Source: Clostridia bacterium (GTDB lineage: Bacteria > Bacillota > Clostridia > Oscillospirales > Acutalibacteraceae). From it: DNA of 64,000 nucleotides. How positions within the stretch are numbered: the stretch's first letter is position 1; every line of letters begins with the position of its first letter. Position numbers and translations under genes: made by a program. The stretch covers positions 42,203 to 106,202 of the forward strand of contig JAGALQ010000040.1 in the NCBI GenBank assembly GCA_017625095.1, given 5' to 3'. The notes beneath the pieces were generated by a model. The model saw only the letters and a list, made by a program, of their open reading frames with translations. It made no database searches and was not told the origin of the DNA. Positions 47,509-47,966 of the stretch are shown here, piece by piece.

Positions 47509-47600
47509 GGAGAGTTGTCCGAGCTGGCCGAAGGAGCACGATTGGAAATCGTGTAAACGTCAAAAGCGTTTCGAGGGTTCGAATCCCTTGCTCTCCGCCA
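47509..47600 (+). tRNA. tRNA-Ser (anticodon GGA)
   Basis: The 92-nt gene has a seven-pair acceptor stem (GGAGAGT with GCTCTCC), anticodon loop TTGGAAA in a CACGA/TCGTG stem (anticodon GGA, reading UCC/UCU), the long variable arm expected of serine tRNAs, T-arm GGGTTCGAATCCC and an encoded CCA. Its last 16 bases recur twice downstream. Confidence 0.96.
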
Positions 47601-47606
47601 AAAAAG

Positions 47607-47638
47607 CAGATACACCCGCAGGGTGTGTCTGTTTTTTT
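47607..47638 (+). terminator. Intrinsic terminator of tRNA-Ser
   Basis: An 11-bp stem (47607-47617 with 47621-47631), a 3-nt loop and a seven-T run. Confidence 0.9.
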
Positions 47639-47643
47639 ATTTT

Positions 47644-47784
47644 GCAAGGGATTCGAAAGGGCGTAAAGAAAACTCTCCGGTGGAGAGTTTTTAGCCCGTC
47701 GCGTTGATGCCATTAAAAGTCTGTAGCCATAACGGGTTCGAAAAGATAGTTGCTTTCAGAAAAAACTACCCTTGCTCTCCGCCA
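47644..47784 (+). repeat. tRNA-tail-bounded non-coding unit A
   Basis: This 141-bp unit is nearly the same as unit B. It starts with GCAAGGGATTCGAA, the exact reverse complement of tRNA-Ser T-arm bases 47578-47591, and ends with a direct 16-bp copy of the tRNA tail (47769-47784, CCCTTGCTCTCCGCCA). Its ends can pair (GCAAGGG with CCCTTGC). Inside are a GGGC/GCCC helix (47659-47662 with 47694-47697) enclosing a terminator-like hairpin (47669-47678 with 47682-47691, T5 tail), and a GGGTTCGA block like a split T-arm. No credible coding frame is present. Confidence 0.85.
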
Positions 47785-47790
47785 AAAAAA

Positions 47791-47930
47791 GCAAGGGATT
47801 CGAAAGGGCGTAAAAAAACTCTCCGGTGGAGAGTTTTTAGCCCGTCGCGTTGATGCCATTAAAAGTCTGTAGCCATAATGGGTTCGAGATGGCAGTGGTT
47901 TTCAGAAAAAACTACCCTTGCTCTCCGCCA
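47791..47930 (+). repeat. tRNA-tail-bounded non-coding unit B
   Basis: The second copy (140 bp) starts six A's after unit A. It differs from A by one single-base indel and seven substitutions, all seven lying in the ~21-nt stretch just before the TTTTCAGAAAAAACTA block; the rest is identical. It ends with the third copy of the tRNA tail (47915-47930). The internal hairpin is 47815-47824 with 47828-47837. Confidence 0.85.
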
Positions 47931-47934
47931 GAAA

Positions 47935-47966
47935 CCATAAGAACTAAGGTTCTTGTGGCTTTTTTC
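47935..47966 (+). terminator. Terminator-like hairpin after unit B
   Basis: A 10-bp stem with one G-T pair (47935-47944 with 47949-47958), then CTTTTTTCTTTT. Confidence 0.75.

Follow-up and report, generated by a model that had tools for sequence, protein, structure and literature searches.

The window, the whole stretch of 64,000 nucleotides that was analyzed, contains a tRNA-Ser(GGA) gene followed by two tandem units whose ends repeat parts of that gene. The features of the locus, all on the forward strand, are as follows.

47509..47600, + strand: tRNA-Ser(GGA) gene called by ARAGORN, the host gene and apparent source, by its T-arm and tail, of the unit ends
47601..47643, + strand: proximal terminator hairpin, T-run and spacer; such terminators are local to the tRNA and do not travel with the unit body
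47644..47784, + strand: unit 1, 141 nt, defined by sequence repeats and alignment, with more copies elsewhere
47644..47657, + strand: inverted T-arm copy of unit 1, GCAAGGGATTCGAA, an inverted-repeat pair with the tRNA
47659..47697, + strand: core of unit 1, GGGC / 10-bp hairpin with a GGT loop / GCCC, from folding and from covariation over 103 distinct units
47769..47784, + strand: tRNA-tail copy of unit 1, from repeat and pattern searches
47791..47930, + strand: unit 2, 140 nt, not preceded by a terminator, defined by sequence repeats and alignment
47791..47804, + strand: inverted T-arm copy of unit 2, an inverted-repeat pair with the tRNA
47806..47843, + strand: core hairpin of unit 2, from folding
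47915..47930, + strand: tRNA-tail copy of unit 2, from repeat and pattern searches
47935..47965, + strand: terminator 3′ of unit 2, possibly the former native tRNA terminator, from its likeness to the distal terminator of genome G005

The layout given in the initial annotation was confirmed. The 16-bp tRNA tail CCCTTGCTCTCCGCCA, reported there to occur three times, was found as an exact match at 47585, 47769, and 47915 only, and a search allowing up to two mismatches returned the same three sites, with none in 100 shuffles. Both units, of 141 and 140 nt (47644-47784 and 47791-47930), open at their 5′ start with the reverse complement of the T-arm, GCAAGGGATTCGAA, and their alignment contained the seven substitutions confined to 21 nt and the single 1-base indel that had been described. 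The annotated hairpin inside a GGGC/GCCC helix, with ends GCAAGGG/CCCTTGC, was recovered when each unit was folded as single-stranded DNA (z -4.00 for unit 1 and -4.20 for unit 2, with 0 of 200 shuffles equally stable). Folded as RNA, unit 1 was barely above shuffled sequence (z -1.72, matched in stability by 14 of 200 shuffles); unit 2 was more stable than shuffled (z -3.55). For comparison, the arms of the copy in genome G001 make a 16-bp outer stem (DNA z -6.85). The initial annotation does not mention the terminators of this locus: one lies ahead of unit 1, a second, different one follows unit 2, and the space between the units holds none. Directly behind the array is a gene with an HNH endonuclease domain (PF01844, 48146-49072), which could be old cargo.

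Searches against Rfam at gathering thresholds gave no match in the window, where the tRNA itself was also missed, and on 13 further loci they returned, besides tRNAs, only a Gut-1 RNA that adjoins the unit of L224 and does not lie inside it. A known Rfam family is rejected or at least made less likely by these results. The Gut-1 RNA of L224 (RF01706, 63.2 bits, 745-821) sits between the tail copy of the unit and a further inverted-arm remnant. In the portions of the literature consulted, we found no description of this element.

The genome of the window carries two more full copies behind tRNA-Ser(CGA) (C22:37545 and C22:34566), as well as a partial copy (C22:30111); a more distantly related type lies at C22:134414, after tRNA-Gln. 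Copies were present in 10 of 59 genomes, this one counted. The core pattern, with up to two mismatches, was found in 46 of 200 sampled genomes of the window's family (own genome included); read backwards, the pattern had no match in the same 200 genomes. Across the phylum, a near-identical pattern (at most one mismatch) was found in one of 149 genomes, that of the window, and in 0 of the 148 others, a sample in which the window's class is represented by few genomes. Among named genomes, at least 120 stretches matched. Among the 80 matches listed, 69 had Clostridia-type names (Ruminococcaceae, Oscillospiraceae, Clostridia, and the like), five were Bifidobacterium, and one each came from Lachnospiraceae, Coriobacteriia, Rhodobacterales, Rhodospirillales, Marivivens, and an alphaproteobacterial MAG. 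Two core patterns matched no viral contig and the arm pattern matched one, a contig carrying a tRNA plus the unit; a viral origin is rejected or at least weakened by these counts.

We next consider where the copies sit. Among 179 core hits (L038-L187, duplicates between collections kept in), a tRNA or tmRNA gene lay upstream on the same strand within 300 bp in 85 cases and within 3 kb in 9; another 24 had no tRNA but lay within 160 bp of the start of their sequence, and 61 had none. The hairpin was found 62-120 bp behind 109 of 176 non-redundant tRNAs, all taken from loci picked for holding the core. These 109 units, one of which is a false pick (L169, tRNA-Tyr, inside a Gut-1-like hairpin array), span 15 tRNA isotypes plus tmRNA and all have the same orientation behind the gene: Ser 25, Arg 24, Leu 14, Pro 8, Tyr 6, Gln 6, Gly 6, Lys 5, Thr 4, Glu 3, Val 2, Ala 2, and one each for Asn, Met, Trp, and tmRNA. 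The 61 of 179 core hits without an upstream tRNA count against the reading proposed below.

The ends of the units match the gene behind which they lie. An inverted T-arm of the unit's own tRNA, at least 10 nt long, was present in 98 of 109 units, compared with 18% when isotypes were swapped, and the median match was 14 nt versus 6 nt with a swapped tRNA. For the tail copy, at least 12 nt of the own tRNA were found in 88 of 109 units (0.14% when swapped), with medians of 16 and 6 nt. Judged from these matches, the unit ends appear to be copied from each target. Counted against such copying are the 11 units that lack an arm of at least 10 nt and the 21 that lack a tail copy of at least 12 nt, some of which end with the contig. 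The arms of the Met unit (L226) measure only 6 nt. At a tRNA-Arg(CCT) gene (L097), the arm is half local and the tail is that of another tRNA form, so that these ends look as after a jump.

Genes other than tRNAs are also occupied. At rpsI, the hairpin is inverted relative to the gene and is followed by a copy of the gene end (QFSKR-stop); two loci, L044 and L050, have three rpsI ends in tandem, the gene's own included. At both of these loci, the hairpin unit is stacked next to another kind of unit, unrelated to it, which has a separate copy of the rpsI 3′ end. Core copies with no tRNA in the sequence examined were found in G193 and in Bifidobacterium. In G193 (among L189-L192 and L231-L239), about ten core hairpins share a common, different frame, again with no tRNA in the sequence examined. 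The initial proposal of a small mobile element that targets tRNA tails is supported by the arms and tails, which match the unit's own tRNA, but it is too narrow: the rpsI and tRNA-less copies fall outside it.

Among 72,556 plasmid records, a 40-nt core query matched 25 at E ≤1, and no match extended over 80% of the query. Four of the 25 were inspected, and in these the hairpin lies within transposase-like genes (L372 by eye). Comparison with uninterrupted copies gave inserts of exactly 45 bp in Paracoccus (IS110 type), 44 bp in Allorhizobium (IS481), and ~52 bp in Moraxella (IS3), the last having CGTTAAG and TTAG flanks in common with the tRNA units. The plasmid inserts may be related to the tRNA units by descent or may be alike in the hairpin only. 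A conserved 45-bp hairpin also recurs on Rhodobacterales plasmids (L371, L381, L382, and L383); in L371 it lies within an annotated, unbroken IS110 transposase gene, and in L381-L383 near transposase-like sequence by eye.

The core hairpin covaries: over 103 distinct units, each pair is kept with several pair types. Because pairing itself was the search criterion, only this variety of pair types is informative. Flanking pairs that were not selected for are kept too, the second being G-C in 56 and C-G in 30 of the 103 units and paired at 0.89 (shuffle mean 0.49); the third pair is an A/G mismatch in 36 of 103.

To compare the histories of body and ends, we used 56 units of known genome, leaving out pairs with a body below 30 nt. 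Bodies behind different tRNAs in one genome scored a mean of 0.34 (36 pairs), those behind the same tRNA in different genera -0.01 (72 pairs), and those differing in both -0.06 (1207 pairs), with shuffled bodies at -0.11 (sd 0.08). A comparison with free end gaps separated these classes little (median 0.82 versus 0.77-0.78). By eye, genome G216 has like bodies at Gln, Lys, Arg, Ser(GGA), Ser(CGA), and Leu. Proximal terminators behaved differently, with a likeness of 18.0 for different tRNAs of one genome (43 pairs), 17.6 between genera (1416 pairs), and 33.1 for the same tRNA inside a genus (14 pairs). Since bodies follow the genome whereas arm, tail, and terminator follow the target, only the ~100-nt hairpin body would travel. 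With terminators found local to the tRNA, the notion of an element carrying its own terminator was dropped. Gene conversion could also account for the resemblance of bodies inside one genome.

The same terminator was found on both sides of the unit over at least 25 nt in 27 of the 79 units that had a tail copy and enough sequence. This likeness stops before the arm in 6 of them and at the arm in 7, and in 14 it runs beyond the arm start into a further unit, several of these being cut off (L188, L201, and L241). A gapped score placed 32 of 80 units above the 99th percentile of swapped pairs, several of them identical over 38 nt. In sequence, the two-sided terminators look like a duplicated target, made of tail and terminator, that has gained an inverted arm and is partly masked by tandem copying and decay. 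Counted against target copying, the other 52 of 79 units had no terminator common to both sides, a state also seen at the window's tRNA-Ser(GGA) locus.

Loci with and without a unit were compared in two genera. In genus g97, a unit lies between tRNA-Ser(CGA) and a V-ATPase gene in G216 and G245, and the same interval of G261 and G275 lacks one; the tail copy of the G245 unit is degenerate, which counts against target copying. Within the window's genus, the distal terminator of G005 at tRNA-Ser(GGA) scores 36 and 40 against the empty loci of G004 and G006, respectively, and the terminator behind unit 2 of the window scores 38 against the G005 distal terminator but only 25 and 26 against those of the two empty loci. 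Scores of up to 30 occur between unrelated terminators, and the two empty loci give just 25 with each other, so these values are weak evidence that a former terminator was pushed outward. Another point against target copying is that the proximal terminator of the window is like that of G003 (54) and unlike the native ones.

Turning to possible sources of mobility, we surveyed 658 ORFs within 3.5 kb of units at 141 loci. Among the 12 ORF groups present in at least three loci, no mobility gene and no recombinase was seen by eye, and this lack of a mobiliser counts against the reading proposed below. At locus L015 of the window's genome, genes do lie between units: by eye, one for an 809-aa protein and a small HTH-regulator-like gene, then one for a 1368-aa protein. 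As required mobilisers, we rejected or gave less weight to Y1/RAYT (PF01797 in 12 of 22 carriers), reverse transcriptase (PF00078 in 6 of 17), serine recombinase (PF00239 in 12 of 13, missing in G106), and IS110 (PF02371 in 1 of 13). In a REP/RAYT system the repeats would flank the Y1 transposase gene, but a script run without a positive control found no core hairpin at 27 PF01797 loci.

We propose that the units are a gene-free, non-autonomous palindromic element that copies its target's end, and we put the probability of this reading at roughly 45%. In its favor are the distribution, the arms, tails, and terminators that match the target, the bodies common to one genome, the covarying hairpin, the orthologous loci with and without a unit, the rebuilt rpsI end, the 45-bp insert of a related hairpin, and the mixed ends at L097. 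That the element is mobile is in itself probable, although neither strain-level polymorphism nor an excised form of the units was seen, which counts against mobility. The travelling part would be the ~100-nt body, made of the conserved core hairpin and a species-specific stretch. This body would enter just after a conserved tRNA, tmRNA, or rpsI gene, at its 3′ end; the gene's last 16-22 nt, often with the terminator, would end up flanking the body on both sides, and the gene end would also be copied inverted at the body's 5′ side. The target gene would be kept intact, and copies would stack in tandem. We infer that a hairpin strand may be inserted by DNA synthesis that switches templates in the T-arm/terminator region, and that insertion may be started in trans by a putative nuclease, transposase, or recombinase; the inverted-arm step is a guess. 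Copying of the target by DNA synthesis is a tentative part of this proposal, with odds a little short of even. It is rather doubtful that the units represent a new insertion mode, in which synthesis copies the target end both ways and nearly any tRNA is occupied harmlessly, with some arrays holding genes between copies in an integron-like manner.

Alternatively, the units could be integron- or CIME-like cassettes, in which a folded site closed by target-derived arms is moved by a tyrosine recombinase in trans and the arms are later corrected by fold-back or gene conversion. The targets equal those that the part of PMC5704250 drawn on here gives for tyrosine-recombinase IMEs, rpsI included, and units are stacked in tandem, some of them 1.7-4.4 kb apart with cargo between. 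Such cargo was found at L015 only, of 21 loci, and PF00589, present in 13 of 13 carriers, was also present in 14 of 14 control genomes. A cassette should moreover bring its own terminator and tail, yet both are local. Because the terminators proved local, we lowered our estimate of the cassette, which we regard as unlikely, and raised that of target-copying insertion.

The units could instead be old residents, inherited at each tRNA, whose bodies are homogenized by gene conversion while the ends stay local. Bodies are indeed alike inside genomes, and truncated further units speak of repeated local rearrangement. Against this stand the presence or absence of a unit at orthologous loci, the sporadic distribution (46 of 200 family genomes, 0 of 148 others in the phylum), and the isolated copies away from tRNAs, which make such an origin quite improbable.

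Stacked att scars, raised in the initial annotation, would make the units minimal CIMEs, accreted remains of decayed integrative elements. The target classes and tandem accretion are those of IMEs and CIMEs as covered in the sections of PMC5704250 used here, and integrase elements are present at some unit loci. However, among the 42 of 58 PF00589 matches examined, two adjoin a unit, which lies outside the att copy, and one is a remnant near rpsI units; no integrative parent with a unit inside its att site was found among them. In the two adjoining cases (L350 and L351), the integrase element sits in the tRNA and has half of the tRNA (50 nt), with no inverted arm, as its att repeat. This 50-nt copy precedes the terminator and unit, so the unit is not the att site of these integrase elements, and that role was rejected. 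Unrelated elements, furthermore, would not leave scars that share a single covarying hairpin and have the same body throughout a genome, and viral contigs gave the counts above (0 with the two core patterns, 1 with the arm pattern). Of the suggestion, the stacking and the target classes stand, but the two integrase loci speak against it, and we consider it highly improbable. Least probable of all is a structured RNA, the third option of the initial annotation, or a trailer with a host role in tRNA termination or processing, which would fit the conserved structure and constant orientation of the 109 units behind tRNAs, but not their presence or absence at orthologous tRNAs, their restriction to 46 of 200 family genomes, the inverted orientation at rpsI, or the RNA z of only -1.72 for unit 1 of the window.

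tRNA genes are common docking sites for islands, and some casposons insert at tRNA 3′ ends. In the descriptions available to us, casposons are self-synthesizing transposons with genes, whereas the units are gene-free. Integron attC cassettes form tandem units that are folded, imperfect palindromes and alike within one genome. Our units are likewise tandem, folded, and alike within a genome, but they are anchored at many tRNA genes and their outer stem appears to be copied from the target. For IMEs and CIMEs, the part of PMC5704250 consulted describes the 3′ ends of tRNA and ribosomal-protein genes, including rpsI, as targets, together with tandem accretion. As compared from that part, the units share the target classes, the rebuilt gene end, the tandem accretion, and the lack of a remaining integrase, and the flanking direct repeats by which CIMEs are recognized, which contain the end of the target gene, are found as tail copies of at least 12 nt in 88 of 109 units. 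They differ in their size of 140-200 bp, single hairpin, inverted arm, and local terminator. REP, CGTC-REP, RPE, and RUP are small non-autonomous palindromes in many copies, RUP lying within IS elements, and CGTC-REPs are without a dedicated transposase, according to the portions of PMC3733652 and PMC2229807 used here. As far as those portions go, our units are likewise small, multi-copy, non-autonomous palindromes, but their core has a 10-bp stem, a 3-nt loop, and conserved flanks, and their arms appear to be copied from the end of the target gene. The element bears on the question of how small palindromes spread in bacteria, and since its body and ends have separable histories, it offers a handle on the insertion step. 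A 140-200 bp element that settles behind 15 tRNA types without damaging the tRNAs would represent a new sort of minimal tRNA-gene resident.
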